From: Nitrospira sp. KM1
GTDB taxonomy: Bacteria; Nitrospirota; Nitrospiria; Nitrospirales; Nitrospiraceae
NCBI RefSeq assembly: GCF_011405515.1
Contig: NZ_AP022671.1
Span: forward strand, 2,914,001 to 2,978,000
Reading direction: 5' to 3'
Length of the DNA stretch: 64,000 nucleotides
Below are positions 37,378 through 45,745 of this stretch, one piece after another. Each line of letters starts with the position of its first letter. Within the stretch, counting starts at the first letter, position 1. The position numbers were made by a program, and so were the translations under genes. The notes under the pieces were generated by a model. It ran no database searches, was not told where the DNA came from, and saw only the letters and a list, made by a program, of their open reading frames with translations.

Positions 37378-37423
37378 AGGCCCTGCCGAAGGTAGAGAAA
37401 GGGTCGAAGAGTTTGGAGTGCGC

Positions 37424-38188
37424 ATGATCGATATGGCCGCGCAACATTCTGTCAGGGACGCAGTAGAGCAGGCGGTGGCCGGCTTGGACTTTGATCGTCT
37501 CAATCGGGAATATTGGGATCAAAACGAGTTTCTCTTCATCCCGCAATTCCTCGATCACTCGATCGTTGAAACCCTCTTGGTTCCTGAGGCGCAGGGTGTG
37601 AAAGGGAGCCTGAACCGTAATTATATCCCCGGCCATAAGAAAGGCGGAAGCGTCAGCTACTACACGGTCATGGAAAAGGCCCCGGTGTTTCTCGATCTCT
37701 ATCGGTCCGAGGCGTTCAGGGATTTCCTGAGCCGTCTGACGGGGGTCAAGTTGATGCTATGTCCGGACCATGACCCGCACTCATGCGCGCTCTACTACTA
37801 TACTGAACCCGGAGATCATATCGGATTCCACTACGATACGTCCTATTACAAAGGGGCTCGGTACACTATTCTGATGGGTCTCGTGGATCGATCGACGCAT
37901 TGCAAACTGGTCTGCGAGCTGTTCAAAGATCATCCGACCACGCCGTCGAAAAAACTCGAATTGACTACCAAGCCTGGCGATATGGTCGTTTTCAACGGCG
38001 ACAAGCTGTGGCATGCCGTAACTCCACTCGGCGAAGGAGAGGAACGCATTGCCCTGACAATGGAATACGTCACCAATCCCGAAATGGGGCCGATCAAGCG
38101 CTTCTACTCCAACCTCAAAGACTCGTTTGCCTACTTCGGTCTTCGCGGTGTATTCAAGCGCGCCGCTTCTCCTCGCCGGACGCACTGA
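37424..38188 (+). CDS. Fe(II)/2-oxoglutarate oxygenase, HalD/BesD-like
   Basis: A 254-residue enzyme begun at ATG 37424, six bases after TTGGAG. The facial-triad region is HIGFHYDTSYYKGARYTIL, with H-x-D intact, and the distal His lies in GDKLWHAVTPLGEGEERIAL followed by the Arg that binds 2-oxoglutarate. The overall sequence recalls HalD/BesD-family proteins that halogenate free amino acids, but those have Gly in place of the Asp. Here the Asp is present, so hydroxylation is more likely than halogenation. The substrate cannot be read from sequence. Confidence 0.75.
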   Translation: MIDMAAQHSVRDAVEQAVAGLDFDRLNREYWDQNEFLFIPQFLDHSIVETLLVPEAQGVKGSLNRNYIPGHKKGGSVSYYTVMEKAPVFLDLYRSEAFRDFLSRLTGVKLMLCPDHDPHSCALYYYTEPGDHIGFHYDTSYYKGARYTILMGLVDRSTHCKLVCELFKDHPTTPSKKLELTTKPGDMVVFNGDKLWHAVTPLGEGEERIALTMEYVTNPEMGPIKRFYSNLKDSFAYFGLRGVFKRAASPRRTH

Positions 38189-39152: not shown

Positions 39153-39662
39153 TTACTGATGTAGATGTTTCATGGCTGCGGCGCACAGGATGATGAAGAA
39201 CCCCATCCAAAGTGCCGCACGTTGGAACGGAACGGCCTCGTAGGCTTCCGTTTCGTCGTCCTCATCATCCGACTTGAAGATGACGGTGTAGAGAAACAGG
39301 GTGAGAAGGCACAGGACGAGGAAGAGCTTGATGAAAAACACAGTGAGGTATTTCGCATGGTGTTGGATGCTCGTTCCCGTCTGAGAGGTCAGCACCTGGT
39401 TGACATAATGCAGATTGATCCCACCGGTAAACAGGAGCACAACCAGGAGGATGCCGGCGACCTTCTTGTAGTGCTGATAGAACACATCGGTAATGGGTTT
39501 GATGTGTTCCTTCGCGACGCTCTTTTGAAGGCCCGGAGTGACCGCCATCACCAGAAACGCCAATCCTCCGATCCAAATGACCGCCGACAACAGGTGGAAC
39601 CAATGATTGACAATAGGGATGAGCGTATTGAGGTCGGTCGCGATTGATTGTGCAGCGTCCAC
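39153..39662 (-). CDS. CopD-like integral membrane protein
   Basis: A 169-residue protein with four membrane helices: HWFHLLSAVIWIGGLAFLVM, VAGILLVVLLFTGG, TVFFIKLFLVLCLLTLFLYTV and a last one near LWMGFFIILCAA. The first helix has H-x-x-x-A-x-x-x-x-x-G-G and there are further His residues (HHAKYL, KHLHQ at the end), as in CopD/YeeA-type proteins that may bind copper or heme. An acidic loop (KSDDEDDETEAYE) precedes the last helix. It sits downstream of the PCP_red genes on the same strand and may be co-transcribed with them. Confidence 0.75.
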   Translation of the reverse strand: MDAAQSIATDLNTLIPIVNHWFHLLSAVIWIGGLAFLVMAVTPGLQKSVAKEHIKPITDVFYQHYKKVAGILLVVLLFTGGINLHYVNQVLTSQTGTSIQHHAKYLTVFFIKLFLVLCLLTLFLYTVIFKSDDEDDETEAYEAVPFQRAALWMGFFIILCAAAMKHLHQ

Positions 39663-39742: not shown

Positions 39743-41140
39743 TCAGGCGTGGGACGAAGGTTTGAAGACCGGAGCGTCATTCCCGAACCGCTTTTTGCGG
39801 AGTTCTTCCATCAACTCGACGGTAATGAGCCCGATGTGGTGTTCGCGCGCATGTTTTTCGACGCCCTTCTTGACCATGGCCCGTAGGAAATAGGGAATCC
39901 GGCTCAAGCGTAAGGCCGATGCTTCGTCCCAGTTGACCTCGGTCTCTTCCTGGACATTGAACGCGACCTTGATCTTTTCCCCGCCCTTGGGGGTATACAG
40001 GCACCACTGGTCTTCGTCCAGCCAGTCCCCATGGTCGACATACGGCCTGGCGCGGCACCCGCCGCAGATATCCGTGTATTCGCAGTCTCCGCATTTGCCT
40101 TTCAGCTGAGGATATCGGAAGGAATTGAATATGTCCGATTGCTCCCAGAGATCCGCGAAACTCTTCTCCCGGACGTTGCCGGCTGACAGCGGCATGTAGG
40201 GGCAGGGTGTCAATTCGCCGTTCGGGGTCACACGGGCATAGTTCGTTCCGGCCAGGCATCCGCCGCCCATGTAACCGGTCGCTTTGGTGATCGGAGAATT
40301 CGGATCTTTTTCGTAGGCCAGGCGTTTGAAATGAGGTGCGCAACGGGCACGGACCAGCATGCCTTGGTAGTTGTCCTGGCAGTTCACCAGGTACCCGAGC
40401 ACTTCTTCGTATTGCGCCGGGGTGATATCGGTCAACTCTTCCCCCCGTCCCGTACAGACCATGAAGAAGACGTTGAGCACGCGGGCACCGAGTGTATGGG
40501 CCCATTCGACGACAGCCGGCAATTCTTGATAATTCATCGGCTGGGCGCTGAAATGGATTTGGAACTGCAATCCATTGCGCTTACTCGCCTCGATGCCGGC
40601 CACGGCTGCTTCCCACGCGCCGGGCACCCCGCGAAACGAATTGTGCTTGGCGGCGTCCAGGGAATCGATGCTGATTCCTACGCCCATGACACCGATGTCT
40701 ACAAGCGTGCGGGCCATGTGGTCGTCGATGAGCATGCCATTGGTCCCGAACACCACCATGAAGCCGAGAGAGACGGCATGGCGGGCGATATCCAGGATGT
40801 CCGGGCGCACCAGAGGTTCTCCACCGGTGATCACGATCAGACATCCCTTATTCACGGCTGCAATTTGATCGATCAGGCGGAAGCACTCGTCGGTCGAAAG
40901 CTCATCGTCCCCTCCGGCCGCCTTGGTCGTCGCGTCGAGATAGCAATGATCGCACTTGAGATTGCAGCGCTTGGTGAGATTCAGTGCGACGAGATAGGGT
41001 TTGAAGTCATCGACGGTGCGTCCATCATACGGACCGACGCCGGCAGGCGTAGGGGTGAAGAACTGTGTAACCTGCTGCTGAAACGAGCCCAGCCCTGCCG
41101 TCAGAGATGGAATATTGAGAATCGGGAGCGACTTTCCCAT
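39743..41140 (-). CDS. Radical SAM/SPASM protein with a C-terminal PCP_red domain
   Basis: A 465-residue protein begun at ATG 41140; the longer frame adds an unlikely N-terminus. The radical SAM cluster motif is C59-x3-C63-x2-C66 in TKRCNLKCDHCYLD. GGEPLVRPDILDIA follows, and GTNGMLIDDHMARTLVDIG marks the barrel. The SPASM part has CPYMPLSAGNVREKSFADLW and CGDCEYTDICGGCRARPY, holding auxiliary clusters. This core resembles AhbD/NirJ-type heme-pathway enzymes and RiPP-modifying enzymes. From about residue 400 a PCP_red domain follows (RIPYFLRAMVKKGVEKHARE), known from protochlorophyllide reductase subunits and found in proteins of unknown role. It lies between the CopD-like gene and the UspA/PCP_red gene. 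Confidence 0.88.
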   Translation of the reverse strand: MGKSLPILNIPSLTAGLGSFQQQVTQFFTPTPAGVGPYDGRTVDDFKPYLVALNLTKRCNLKCDHCYLDATTKAAGGDDELSTDECFRLIDQIAAVNKGCLIVITGGEPLVRPDILDIARHAVSLGFMVVFGTNGMLIDDHMARTLVDIGVMGVGISIDSLDAAKHNSFRGVPGAWEAAVAGIEASKRNGLQFQIHFSAQPMNYQELPAVVEWAHTLGARVLNVFFMVCTGRGEELTDITPAQYEEVLGYLVNCQDNYQGMLVRARCAPHFKRLAYEKDPNSPITKATGYMGGGCLAGTNYARVTPNGELTPCPYMPLSAGNVREKSFADLWEQSDIFNSFRYPQLKGKCGDCEYTDICGGCRARPYVDHGDWLDEDQWCLYTPKGGEKIKVAFNVQEETEVNWDEASALRLSRIPYFLRAMVKKGVEKHAREHHIGLITVELMEELRKKRFGNDAPVFKPSSHA

Positions 41141-41212
41141 AGTCAGTCCTGAGTGCTGAGAGTGGCGTATGAAGAAATCGGAGGTGGCTCCGATCCGACG
41201 CCGCACTCAGAA

Positions 41213-43279
41213 CTATGCTTTGGCCTTTCCGGTCAGGTTGGCAATCATGTCCTTGAGGTTGCCGGTTTTCATGGCCTCCTCCATGTACCCTTTCGCCTGC
41301 TCGATGCCTTCGTTCGCAACTTCCAGCGTGATGTGCGTCGTTCCGATCTTATCCGCATGCTTGACGATCAACGCTTTGGTGCAATCACGCATAAATCCAT
41401 CCGGCGCGCGCTCAAGTCGCGCTTGGGCATCGGCGGTCCAGGTATAGGGGACTGAATCGGCAGGGGGATGTCCATTCGACGCCGTTCCGTTCACCGCGTC
41501 CAATTTGGCTGCCGCGTCAGCCGAGATGCCGGCACCTTTGTTCGCAAAAATCGGTTGGTAATCCTCCGAAGCCGCCTCTTGGATCATCGGCGCGGCGTAT
41601 TCGAGAGTAATCGTCGTCATGCCTAATTTGCGGGCGCTTTTCTCGATCTTGGCTTTGGCGCGCCGTCGTTGGAACCCGGCTGGAACCGCACGGATGGCTT
41701 CCTTCGCGTCTTTGGTCCATTGCATCGGCACATCGTCGTAGGCCACGTCGGTTTCGACGGCGCCTTCCGATTTGGCCGCGGCTTCAAAGATGCTCTTGTC
41801 GACCTGCTTGAACCTGGCTCCTTCGGCTCCGCAAACCGGACATTTGACCGGTGTATCGCCCTTGCCAATGTATCCGCATCCGTCGCATACGAAATAGTTC
41901 TGATTCATCCGGTCAAGATAGGCCTGCGTGACCTCGGAATTTTTCGGTTTGTCTTCGACGACCTGGGTCATCATGCCGCTCAACGTGGAGCCCATGAGGT
42001 CTTTCGCCACCGAATCATCCGCCTGCATCTTGTCCCGATCGATTCCGGCAGCATCCAGATTTCCACCGAGTGCGCGCATGGCATCCATCGCACCCTTGGG
42101 AAGGATATGGCCGACCGCGGAATCCACGACCGTGTTGCTGATGATCGTGTGACCCTTTTCGATTGCATACCGGTGAATGGCGGTCTTGGCGACTCCTCGT
42201 GCGAAGACAGGAATTTTTTCCATCCGATGGAGGGCCTCTTCGGTCCAGGCGATCGTGTATTCCGCCTGGGTATCGATCGGAGGCACGTACTTTCGGTTGG
42301 AGACCAGGACGTTACAGGGTGCGCTCCGTAGGAGATTTTCAGTGTTGCTGCCGATATCCATGTCCTCGTCGCTATGGACGCCGATGCGGCCAACGATGAG
42401 GAGCGCAGGAATATCTTTCCGAACGTATTGAATAATCTTTTCAAAGGCCTTGCCGTCGAGCAAGGTCGTCTTGATGTCGGTTTGTTCCGCCTGTGCGATT
42501 TCGCGGGAGATGTCCAGGTGCGATTGATAAATTTTCGCCAAGCCGCTGTCGATGATCTCTTCGTGCAGCTTTTCTTGTTCCTTGAACCGGAATACTTTAC
42601 CGGCCTCTTCATTCAAGACACCTGAGATGCTATGGAAAGCGGCATAGTGAAAATAGGGGTCGAATGCGGAAATCGCCTCAACGGGCATATTCAACGCTTT
42701 GCCCAAGGCCAAACCGGTCATCAGGCCGCCGAATGAATAGGGGCTGCCATCCACCGCCACGACGATCTTACCGGACGTCATGGGCTGGATATTCTTAATG
42801 ATCAACATGTCCGAATTGCGGATGCGGCGGATCACACGCTCGGTATTGCTGCCAATCACACTGTCTTTGACGGCTCCCACCCCCAATGCGCCCATGATGA
42901 CCAGGTCGTAGCCATTCGTATTGATATCTTCCGCCAGGACCTTCCAATTACGGCCCTCGAGCGACCGGCGCTCAATCGGTAGGTTGGCCTCGTTGCATTT
43001 CTTATCGACGTAGTCCAGATAGGAATCGGTGATGATCTGAAGTCCTCTGGTAATCAAGGAATCATGGATCTGGCGCTGGCGGTCGAGCTCTTTCTCGTCG
43101 TGATACTCTTCCGGAAGTCCGGCCTCCATCTGCTTGAATCGCTTGTCGTGCATCTTGGCCGCGTAGACATGGCTGCCGACGATCTTGGCTCCGAACATCT
43201 TGGCCATGTGAACGCCGACGTCCACCGCCGTGTTGGAATGGTCGGAGTTATCGACCGGAATATAGATAGTCTTGTACAT
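41213..43279 (-). CDS. Fusion protein: UspA-UspA-PCP_red-rubredoxin-PCP_red-PCP_red
   Basis: A 688-residue soluble protein begun at ATG 43279, with GGAGGAGA (complement of 43287-43294) seven bases upstream. Two universal stress protein domains occupy about 1-145 and 165-325; each ends in an ATP-binding-type loop (MGALGVGAVKDSVIGSNTER and GRIGVHSDEDMDIGSNTENL). A PCP_red-like segment lies at 340-400 (AWTEEALHRMEKIPVFARG). Next is a rubredoxin-type zinc/iron site at about 464-485 (CDGCGYIG, CPVCGAEG). Two more PCP_red-like segments follow at 518-570 (QWTKDAKEAIRAVPAGFQRR) and 610-665 (WTADAQARLERAPDGFMRD). It looks like a stress-sensing redox protein, but this is an inference; the function is unknown. 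It is upstream of the radical SAM/PCP_red gene in the same direction. Confidence 0.88.
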   Translation of the reverse strand: MYKTIYIPVDNSDHSNTAVDVGVHMAKMFGAKIVGSHVYAAKMHDKRFKQMEAGLPEEYHDEKELDRQRQIHDSLITRGLQIITDSYLDYVDKKCNEANLPIERRSLEGRNWKVLAEDINTNGYDLVIMGALGVGAVKDSVIGSNTERVIRRIRNSDMLIIKNIQPMTSGKIVVAVDGSPYSFGGLMTGLALGKALNMPVEAISAFDPYFHYAAFHSISGVLNEEAGKVFRFKEQEKLHEEIIDSGLAKIYQSHLDISREIAQAEQTDIKTTLLDGKAFEKIIQYVRKDIPALLIVGRIGVHSDEDMDIGSNTENLLRSAPCNVLVSNRKYVPPIDTQAEYTIAWTEEALHRMEKIPVFARGVAKTAIHRYAIEKGHTIISNTVVDSAVGHILPKGAMDAMRALGGNLDAAGIDRDKMQADDSVAKDLMGSTLSGMMTQVVEDKPKNSEVTQAYLDRMNQNYFVCDGCGYIGKGDTPVKCPVCGAEGARFKQVDKSIFEAAAKSEGAVETDVAYDDVPMQWTKDAKEAIRAVPAGFQRRRAKAKIEKSARKLGMTTITLEYAAPMIQEAASEDYQPIFANKGAGISADAAAKLDAVNGTASNGHPPADSVPYTWTADAQARLERAPDGFMRDCTKALIVKHADKIGTTHITLEVANEGIEQAKGYMEEAMKTGNLKDMIANLTGKAKA

Positions 43280-43435
43280 TGAGATGTCTCCTCCAGGCAC
43301 CCTCACAGACGGCGAGAATCGTCATAATTGCCAAAAAAACCAAATGGTTGACGATGGCCGCCTCTGTAAAAGAAACGGCATGATAGCACCGGCCGTCTCG
43401 GGATTGCAAGGTATTCAGGGGGTAGAAAGGACTTG

Positions 43436-44912
43436 TTAGGGCGAGGAGGTCGTGAGGGATTTTCCCTCTGAATGCGAGGCCGAGAGGCGAGGTTTTTTGG
43501 ACCGCAGGATTCTTCCAGGGAGAGGAGCGTGTCCCGTCCGGAATTCCCTTCGATGCCACGAGCAAGTTGGCGTCGGCGTACGTGCCGCCCTCCTGCGAGG
43601 TCTGGGATAGCGAACCGGTCCATTTCCTGGGATCACGGCTTCCACTTTTTTGTTCCCAGGCCTTGAGGCATGCCTTCGCGATAATTTTGTTCAACGGTGC
43701 AGGATTATAGAGCAGTTTTCTGATGCTGTTGGGCGTCAGCATCAGCGGGTTATAGCCGGCCGACAGGTACCCTTCTTCCAGCAAACGTTGTTCGAGATCG
43801 GTGTTCGGCTGGATTCCGAGGAAGAACATCAGCGGAAACACCCGTTCTTCGCCCAAGATGGATGCAACCATCTTATAAGCCTCGACGCTCTGCAGCAGTG
43901 TCTCTTCCGTCTCTTTGGGACTATTCAGCGAGTCGTTCAGGATGACCTTGCCCTTAAAGCCGGCCTCGGCAAGATAGCGGCATCCGTCATAGAGCCGTTC
44001 GAGTTTGAAGCCCATGTACAGATTGTTCAGGACCTCCTGGGAACCCGATGTGATCGCCACCTCCAGGTCTCCCACTCCCGAGCGGACCATCAACTTGGCC
44101 AGGTCAGGGGTGATCAAGGACGTCTGGATATATCCCGACCATTCAATTTCCAATTTCTCGCTGAGAATCCGCTCTAAGATCTCCGTGCATTGAGGGTATG
44201 CTTCCTTCCCTGTAATAAACTGCGCGTCCGTGAACCAGAACCGCCTGGCGCCCCATTGATGGTAATGTTGCGCAATATCTTTGACTACCATGCCGGGGGG
44301 GCGATACCGGACTCGTTTGCCCTCTATATAAGGATAAAGACAGAAGGCGCAGTCATAGGGACAGCCGCGCTTGGTCTGCACGCCGATCGCTTCGTCTCGG
44401 TAGGCCCCGTATTGCGGGAAGATTGAGATAGGGAAGGTCGACTGTCAGCGCATCGAGGAGGGCCGGCGAGCCCTGTTGCCCCTTCCGGATCCGCCCGCTT
44501 TCCTTAATGATGTAACGTTCATCTTCGATCGATCGTCCCTCGATCAGCTTCAGGATGGCGTCTTCACCCTCGCCCAAGAGCCCGATGGTGCCTTCCGGCA
44601 ACTTGTCGATCAACTGATCCGCAAAGGCGGTGAAGGCGCCGCCTCCGATCATGATCTGGGATTTGGCAAACTCCTTCCGATATGCCAAGGATACGAGAGG
44701 ATCGTATAGATGTGGCGGTAATACCGGTAAAGTTGTTTGACGCCTTCGATCGATGCGACGATGCGTTTGAGAGGGTTGCTCGCAAAGTAGAAGTTGAATG
44801 CATGCTCAAGAGACGAATCGCCTTCGTGCGGCGAGAAGATTTGAATGTCGCGCCACGAGAAACACAGCAAATTCGTGCCTTCTGCCAGGCAACCAATCCT
44901 CAAATCGCTCAA
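43436..44912 (-). pseudogene. Frameshifted B12-binding-type radical SAM protein
   Basis: Four frames must be joined. The most upstream (from 44912) gives LLCFSWRDIQIFSPHEGDSS. After a shift near 44700 the next reads SLAYRKEFAKSQIMIGGGAF and the TIGLLGEGEDAILKLIEG block. A shift near 44410 gives FPQYGAYRDEAIGVQTKRG and the cluster motif C-x3-C-x2-C (GCPYDCAFCLYP), then a full barrel up to RDPRKWTGSLSQ. Two more shifts (near 43600 and 43515) recover GRDTLLSLEE and the end LRSKKPRLSASHSEGKS. The first 90-100 residues of a normal B12-binding domain are absent. The gene is dead or was damaged by errors. It lies between menG and the UspA/PCP_red gene on the same strand and may once have belonged to that operon. 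Confidence 0.85.
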
Positions 44913-44962: not shown

Positions 44963-45745
44963 TTATTTGATTGCCACGTGAATGGCAACAATGCCGCCTG
45001 TTAAATTTCTATATGATACCTGCCGGAAGCCCGCGTCGCGCAAGACCTGGCAGAGCCGTTCCTGATCGGGGAATGTGCGGATGGACGCCGGAAGGTATTC
45101 ATAGACGCCGGTTCTGTCGCGGGCAACCTTGGTGCCGATCCAGGGAAGCAATGTAAACGAATACCAATCATAGAGAGTTCGTAGCCAACCAAACACCGGC
45201 TTGGAGAATTCCAGGCACACGAACGTGCCGCCCGGCTTCATGACACGCCGGATTTCGCCCACGGCCTGGGCGAGATTCCCGACGTTGCGCATGCAGAATC
45301 CGGTTGTGACGGCATCGAATGTCCCGTCGGCAAAGCCCAGATGCTCGGCGTTCGCCTGCATGCAGGTGATTTTGTCATCCAGTTGTTTGCTTTGAATCTT
45401 CCTGAGCCCTTCCACGAGCATCGCGTGGTTCAAATCTGAGGCGATAACTCGCCCGGCGTTTCCCATGAGAGGTTCGACAAGTAGAGCAAGATCGGCAGTG
45501 CCGGCTCCGACATCGAGAGCCGTTCCCTGTTCGGCTCGCGGGACCAACGAGGCGGTGATTTTTTTCCAGCGATAGTGTAACCCAAAGCTCAGCAGCGTAT
45601 TGTTCAGATCATAAACCCCGGCGATCGCCGTGAACATCCGCTGTACCGCCTGCTCACGGGCCTCTCCCGACCAGGTCGAAATGGTGCGGGCTTCCGCGTC
45701 GCCCTGGCGCTGGGTCTGCGTCACGGACTCCTCCACAGATAACAT
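44963..45745 (-). CDS. ubiE: Demethylmenaquinone/ubiquinone methyltransferase MenG (UbiE)
   Basis: A 260-residue enzyme. MFTAIAGVYDLNNTLLSFGLHYRWKK, split here as the typical opening, is present; the motif I region is ALDVGAGTADLALLVEP, and the family signature GFCMRNV-GNLAQAVGEIRRVMKPGG follows, with LEFSKP and the C-terminal RNLTGGIVAIHVAI. It adds the final methyl group in menaquinone synthesis. A Nitrospira-like organism would use menaquinone. The start ATG at 45745 is preceded by GAGGAG-type bases on the minus strand. Confidence 0.92.
   Translation of the reverse strand: MLSVEESVTQTQRQGDAEARTISTWSGEAREQAVQRMFTAIAGVYDLNNTLLSFGLHYRWKKITASLVPRAEQGTALDVGAGTADLALLVEPLMGNAGRVIASDLNHAMLVEGLRKIQSKQLDDKITCMQANAEHLGFADGTFDAVTTGFCMRNVGNLAQAVGEIRRVMKPGGTFVCLEFSKPVFGWLRTLYDWYSFTLLPWIGTKVARDRTGVYEYLPASIRTFPDQERLCQVLRDAGFRQVSYRNLTGGIVAIHVAIK

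Follow-up and report, generated by a model that had tools for sequence, protein, structure and literature searches.

A PCP_red-containing Usp and radical SAM gene pair of Nitrospira sp. KM1 and its association with OR-N (CydAA') oxidases

The stretch of the Nitrospira sp. KM1 chromosome analysed here (contig NZ_AP022671.1, positions 2,914,001 to 2,978,000; 64,000 nucleotides, referred to below as the window, from a closed genome of 4.51 Mb) encodes two neighbouring proteins that share the PCP_red domain. One joins two universal stress protein (Usp) domains to three PCP_red copies and a rubredoxin-like site; the other is a radical SAM/SPASM protein with a PCP_red domain at its C-terminus, and a small membrane protein is a probable third member (Table 1). 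The pair goes together with the OR-N family of bd-like oxidases in at least eight phyla, and on balance we favour the view that it forms the core of a maturation module for these oxidases, in which an AhbD-like enzyme would modify the oxidase's tetrapyrrole.

Table 1. Features of the gene pair and associated genes (positions refer to the window unless another locus is named)
Feature	Position	Strand	Basis
Usp-Usp-PCP_red-rubredoxin-PCP_red-PCP_red protein, 688 amino acids	41213..43279	-	Pfam matches and motifs; full-length homologues in Nitrospirota and Rhodothermia
PCP_red copy 1 of the Usp protein	42116..42247 (genome 2956116-2956247)	-	Pfam, 52.7 bits
Rubredoxin-like Cys4 site CX2C...CX2C, residues 463-491 of the Usp protein	41807..41893	-	Pfam and motif reading
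PCP_red copy 2 of the Usp protein	41600..41719	-	Pfam, 41.7 bits
PCP_red copy 3 of the Usp protein	41315..41440	-	Pfam, 32.7 bits
AhbD-like radical SAM/SPASM protein with C-terminal PCP_red, 465 amino acids from the likely ATG	39743..41140	-	Pfam/NCBIfam; starts of homologues
PCP_red domain of the radical SAM protein	39797..39931	-	Pfam, 49.6 bits
CopD-like four-helix membrane protein, 169 amino acids, probable third member	39153..39662	-	Downstream of the pair in Nitrospirales; weak relatives by the module in Calditrichia and Rhodothermia
Members of an unnamed family of about 230-250 amino acids	L083 7051-7785; L084 9888-10649; L085 10560-11291; L163 9167-9865		

Two adjacent PCP_red proteins

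A first-pass annotation of the window had placed a protein with Usp domains, three PCP_red segments and a Cys4 site upstream of a radical SAM/SPASM-PCP_red protein, and Pfam scores and motifs agree with this description. In the Usp protein, Usp (PF00582) reaches 110.9 bits over two stretches and PCP_red (PF08369) 110.6 bits over three; every PCP_red copy, including that of the radical SAM protein, passes the Pfam gathering score singly (all above 32.5 bits), and the scores lie far above chance, where the annotation had left room for segments scoring no better than random. The RUBY_RBDX match (25.9 bits) is slightly below its Pfam cut-off of 26.5, and the four rubredoxin-type cysteines are intact at residues 465, 468, 480 and 483; the Cys4 site is retained in several phyla and is scored in Calditrichia too. 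Both Usp domains match the family and carry the ATP motif G-2x-G-9x-G-S (residues 130 and 297), and the protein has a highly conserved segment HDxRFKQME. PCP_red itself is the C-terminal domain of BchB/ChlB, a subunit of the chlorin-making dark-operative protochlorophyllide reductase (DPOR), and to our knowledge no role has been established for it beyond chlorophyll synthesis; no paper using PCP_red for this domain was found in the literature searched. Its weak PDB matches are to BchB/ChlB (3aek, 8vqh, 2kru) and to the stand-alone protein Asr4154 (2l09).

The starts of homologues of the radical SAM protein correspond to the ATG at 41140; the GTG at 41206, which would give 487 amino acids, does not match them. 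The gap of 70 bases first reported becomes 72 when counted from this ATG. All three domains exceed their Pfam cut-offs (Radical_SAM 79.7, SPASM 42.0 and PCP_red 45.3 bits, or 49.6 in the genome profile search), and PCP_red is present on family members from every phylum examined. The radical SAM motif CX3CX2C is common to all 19 aligned members (alignment A2), and eight SPASM cysteines, spaced CX27CX17CX36CX2CX5CX2CX17C as counted in the window protein, occupy positions invariant across the 19. The protein thereby has the full cysteine motif published for AhbD, CX3CX2C plus CX20-33CX17CX36-37CX2CX5CX2CX17-35C with two auxiliary [4Fe-4S] clusters (PMC10452713), and its family shares the CAPH motif with AhbD.

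The highest-scoring NCBIfam models are NirJ2 (TIGR04055, 323 of 500 bits) and AhbD (TIGR04545, 314.5 of 500 bits), both under their cut-offs; PqqE and SkfB reach 110 and 71 bits. When a tree was calculated without the PCP_red part, 30 PCP_red-bearing proteins were split by a branch at 100/100 from 11 proteins taken as AhbD, the AhbD side consisting of Nitrospirota AhbD-like sequences only. In its radical SAM core the protein shares 94% identity with its counterpart in N. moscoviensis. Among solved structures the predicted fold is nearest to the peptide enzymes SuiB (Z 27.8), SkfB and PqqE, and SuiB is also the nearest fold of AhbD according to the AhbD authors (PMC10452713). Because motifs and fold are shared, yet the proteins form their own clade and score below the cut-offs, we class the radical SAM protein, judging from sequence, as AhbD-like and as belonging to a separate sister group rather than as an AhbD.

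Downstream of the pair, the membrane protein described as CopD-like in the first-pass annotation is where it was said to be, but the family name fits poorly. It has no Pfam match at E <= 0.001, and its NF033808 score of 35.6 bits is far from the cut-off of 195, so that it falls outside CopD (PF05425); homologues in other phyla reach 20.8 and 26.9 of 32.1 bits, and the predicted model is a generic four-helix bundle. Roles as a HemJ-type protoporphyrinogen oxidase or in copper transport were considered and found no support: no family cut-off was reached and the fold search returned a generic four-helix bundle only.

Occurrence of the pair and of OR-N oxidases

In a sample of 198 Nitrospirota genomes, the Usp and radical SAM genes were found together and adjacent in almost every member of Nitrospirales and sister families. 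The two proteins had been proposed to form one unit, with co-occurrence in related genomes as the check, and side-by-side genes in nearly all carriers bear this out; in G156 they lie about 23 kb apart on one contig. Scattered members of the Thermodesulfovibrionia-like families f25, f26, f27 and f30 carry the pair at about 40% (radical SAM) and 32% (Usp) identity, and their radical SAM protein retains PCP_red.

The bd-like oxidase of Nitrospira has been named OR-N or CydAA' (PMC12342949) and is reported to be conserved in Nitrospinota (PMC10839748); it is likely the terminal oxidase of most Nitrospirales. In three genomes (G111, G174 and G176) the pair lies in one gene run with a Cyt_bd_oxida_I subunit, cytochromes c and an NXR-like molybdoenzyme, joined in G176 by a NarJ-type chaperone. 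The order there is OR-N, cytochrome c, Usp, radical SAM, and in G049 it is the same with HemY at the end. Across the sample, with OR-N assigned by similarity and not by the published CydA classification, the Usp gene and OR-N agree in 194 of 198 genomes (82 with both, 112 with neither, two plus two discordant). Outside Nitrospirales and their class, 19 genomes have both, two have Usp only, none has OR-N only and 112 have neither. The two switch together in six families of mixed status, except in two metagenome-assembled genomes with Usp only (G002, which is fragmented, and G008). In genus g74, G150 has both genes and G134 neither, while an NXR-like gene is present in both genomes. Such contrasts between close relatives are more telling than the Fisher p of about 1e-50, which, like the phyletic counts, treats related genomes as independent and serves only to rank hypotheses. 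Heme ligands of OR-N were sought by alignment with E. coli CydA (His19 is kept in some OR-N types, the Thermodesulfovibrionia type has Met, and Glu445 is lost), and this approach was dropped since the alignment is too distant.

The same gene runs raise the question of whether the pair serves NXR instead, for example in loading heme or molybdenum cofactor. It sits within NXR-like operons in the three genomes named above, and MoaA is found near it in G150. Yet NXR matches the phyletic pattern far less well than OR-N does: Usp and NxrA-like genes occur together in 50 of the 198 genomes, with 34 having Usp only, five NXR only and 109 neither. At the threshold used, the 34 carriers show no NxrA-like gene, and 14 of the 34 lie outside the Nitrospirales class; four genomes have an NxrA-like gene but neither OR-N nor the pair. 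NXR was therefore rejected as the partner, and we regard such a role as very improbable.

Beyond Nitrospirota, a scan of 84,980 species returned 527 relatives of the Usp protein, and the best 80 of the 527 include members of Rokubacteria/Methylomirabilota, Tectomicrobia, Chloroflexi, Rhodothermia/Bacteroidota, Calditrichia, KSB1, TA06, Planctomycetota and Deltaproteobacteria. A CydA-like protein is present in 28 of 30 non-Nitrospirota genomes found via the Usp gene, about 22 of these proteins being of the OR-N type at an identity of at least 47%; those of Chloroflexi are of a more distant type (28-29%). Calditrichia and Rhodothermia carry a cluster of OR-N, cytochrome c, radical SAM-PCP_red, Usp-PCP_red-rubredoxin, Mrp, ribbon-PCP_red and CopD-like genes. 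Among 245 Rhodothermia genomes, a class chosen once three of its members had shown the operon, and whose carriers are related to each other, the Usp protein occurs in 26 and OR-N in 28, and all 26 are among the 28; in 23 the two share a contig, 5.0-7.0 kb apart. As the OR-N hypothesis arose from Nitrospirota, the Rhodothermia count is its strongest check.

This distribution also bears on the first-pass proposal of a redox or stress system, which we do not uphold: nothing points to a response to general or nitrite stress, and occurrence follows the OR-N oxidase. A signalling role, with ATP or stress sensed through the Usp domains and the PCP_red and rubredoxin parts responding to redox state, would make use of the intact ATP motifs and the rubredoxin-type Cys4 site. 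Against it, the pair was not seen to have any recurring regulator, kinase or stress gene as a neighbour, and occurrence matches a single respiratory oxidase family over phyla, which leaves signalling with little likelihood.

Separately, the radical SAM genes of Manganitrophus (L175 12831-14225) and of family f8 (L090 5935-7332) cluster with Rokubacteria at 100/100, whereas the Usp proteins of the same organisms are nearer to Nitrospirota (72% and 61% identity to the window protein). The radical SAM genes are likely the result of gene replacement across phyla.

Further members of the gene set and neighbouring genes

A genome profile search found five PCP_red proteins in total in Nitrospira sp. 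KM1. One consists of PCP_red repeats only, and another is a zinc-ribbon PCP_red protein whose gene follows that of an Mrp-type ATPase; the Mrp relative in Calditrichia is NUBPL/ParA by Pfam. A further gene, for a second ribbon-PCP_red protein, is located some 1 kb upstream of an OR-N gene, with one membrane reading frame between them. These further PCP_red proteins and the Mrp/NUBPL ATPase belong to the same gene set as the pair. Also in this genome (L237 1421-7122), an NxrA-like gene is located directly downstream of a bd-like oxidase subunit gene. Genes of the unnamed family listed in Table 1 immediately follow the radical SAM gene in deep Nitrospirota, and in KSB1 they come shortly ahead of the Usp gene; for one member a PNPOx-like match stays below the threshold (17.6 of 28.1 bits).

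Within the window, the MpqE gene (methyl-plastoquinone methyltransferase; 44963-45745, minus strand; 408 bits against a cut-off of 335) lies immediately upstream of a split gene and the pair, a position kept in several Nitrospira. The split gene (43248-44912, minus strand) resembles the B12-binding radical SAM gene slr0320 (NF045585) and is broken into three overlapping reading frames, while its counterpart in N. moscoviensis (L177 8195-9847) is a single frame of 550 amino acids; it is a pseudogene or a sequencing error in the source genome. On the other side, between lolA and the CopD-like gene, a 2OG-Fe(II) oxygenase-like protein (37418-38188, plus strand) matches the halogenase HalD at 35.6 bits (cut-off 26) and is kept in nearby Nitrospira.

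A possible role in oxidase maturation

A tetrapyrrole connection, as first suggested, is favoured by the AhbD-like enzyme and by heme genes beside the pair in some genomes: in G049 and in G008 HemY (TIGR00562; 304 and 291 bits, cut-off 97.85) is the next gene after that of the radical SAM protein, and in G150 HemL precedes the Usp gene. Constant neighbourhood of heme genes and a CopD-like gene had been suggested as a check: the CopD-like gene recurs in Nitrospirales and weakly in other phyla, and the heme genes are not constant.

Kinship to AhbD and its cysteine motif could mean that the enzyme does no more than provide another heme b synthase, converting coproheme to heme b at low oxygen. In keeping with this, HemF was not found in nine Nitrospirales checked, HemN_C matches read in Nitrospirales (a partial list) have the length of HemW, and the source genome has no HemN_C match. 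However, the same nine Nitrospirales have a ChdC-type protein, HemF is present in families f3/f4 and in G119 and G131, and the Thermodesulfovibrionia-like carriers of the deep families own a separate AhbD-like gene, from which the clade discussed here stands apart. Occurrence tracks OR-N and no heme b route. Because carriers use ChdC, HemF or AhbD, the radical SAM-PCP_red enzyme is not bound to a single heme b route; replacement of HemN or HemF, or core heme b synthesis, is disfavoured for the same reason, and we consider heme b synthase activity improbable.

The chief rival is that the enzyme modifies a peptide or protein residue, by a crosslink or thioether, in the oxidase or a cytochrome c partner, with the PCP_red and Usp parts providing docking and recognition. 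The nearest solved folds are SPASM enzymes that modify proteins or ribosomally synthesised and post-translationally modified peptides (anSME besides the three named above), and a tie to a single oxidase family suits a protein substrate equally. By sequence, however, the enzyme is far nearer to NirJ2 and AhbD than to PqqE and SkfB, HemY and HemL are among its neighbours, and a tetrapyrrole reductase is where PCP_red is known from. The loci revealed no recognisable precursor peptide, though no systematic search for one was made. We hold a protein substrate to be unlikely, if less so than the other alternatives.

Under the maturation reading, the radical SAM enzyme with its two auxiliary iron-sulfur clusters would probably carry out an oxidative radical change on a side chain of heme b or a precursor, and the modified tetrapyrrole would become a cofactor of the oxidase. 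PCP_red would probably bind the tetrapyrrole or dock partners that carry it. The Usp protein may act as an ATP-binding or ATP-dependent scaffold that carries several PCP_red modules, and its Cys4 site might accept the electron released in an AhbD-type reaction or bind metal. The Mrp/NUBPL ATPase could load iron-sulfur clusters and the CopD-like protein provide membrane contact, with the PCP_red, Usp and Mrp proteins delivering cofactors. The domains, the conserved pairing, the tie to OR-N and the AhbD-type motifs are observations, from which substrate and mechanism are inferred. Maturation as the role of the module seems to us probable; for a tetrapyrrole as the substrate the chances are even or slightly better, and the roles given to individual parts are put forward with low confidence. 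More tentatively, and with the odds somewhat against it, the enzyme might make an undescribed type of heme for OR-N, or install a modified heme that is already known through a new pathway, with PCP_red as the general tetrapyrrole-handling module of that assembly line.

Several observations weigh against oxidase maturation through a modified tetrapyrrole. The sub-cut-off NirJ2 and AhbD scores and the proximity to peptide-enzyme folds are two, and the similarity-based OR-N assignment and the shared ancestry behind the phyletic counts temper the association. The Nitrospirales pair itself is not beside an oxidase gene. In the Thermodesulfovibrionia-like families the Usp protein is shorter and has neither PCP_red nor rubredoxin parts, and these parts are therefore not essential. 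At four Chloroflexi loci (L109, L110, L111 and L113) the Usp-PCP_red gene is followed by distant CydA-like genes, and the examined stretches contain no radical SAM gene; in L110 the Usp-PCP_red protein has five PCP_red stretches, and a cytochrome b-like gene lies between two CydA-like genes.

If the enzyme does provide such a heme, Nitrospira-type nitrifiers, Rokubacteria, Rhodothermia and others would respire oxygen by means of a specially built tetrapyrrole. Nitrospirales are key bacteria of the nitrogen cycle, and their OR-N family has been described as experimentally uncharacterised (PMC10839748, PMC12342949); the genes that follow OR-N over phyla provide a concrete list of candidate assembly factors. 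The maturation reading predicts a modified heme or residue in the OR-N oxidase, gives PCP_red a testable role outside chlorophyll synthesis, and may help to account for the failed production of Nitrospira membrane complexes in other hosts. No earlier description of the module was found in the literature searched, nor any work linking cytochrome bd, radical SAM, universal stress protein and Nitrospira, although the founding OR-N paper may mention some of the neighbours.

Compared with OR-N CydAA' as published (PMC12342949, PMC10839748), the Cyt_bd_oxida_I genes considered here are physically linked to the module, whose accessory genes we did not find described there. With tandem UspE-type universal stress proteins the Usp protein has in common two Usp domains with ATP motifs, and it differs in their fusion to PCP_red and rubredoxin-like parts and in the HDxRFKQME segment. 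The PCP_red domain, above its Pfam cut-off, is shared with BchB/ChlB of DPOR, but the nitrogenase-like body is missing, and PCP_red appears instead as a repeated module that is found on proteins of three kinds (Usp, zinc-ribbon and radical SAM). Finally, the radical SAM protein shares with AhbD and NirJ2 the CX3CX2C motif, the eight SPASM cysteines in the same spacing and CAPH, and is set apart by its own clade, its scores under the NCBIfam cut-offs, the additional C-terminal PCP_red and the Usp partner; unlike AhbD, it is not bound to the siroheme-dependent heme route.

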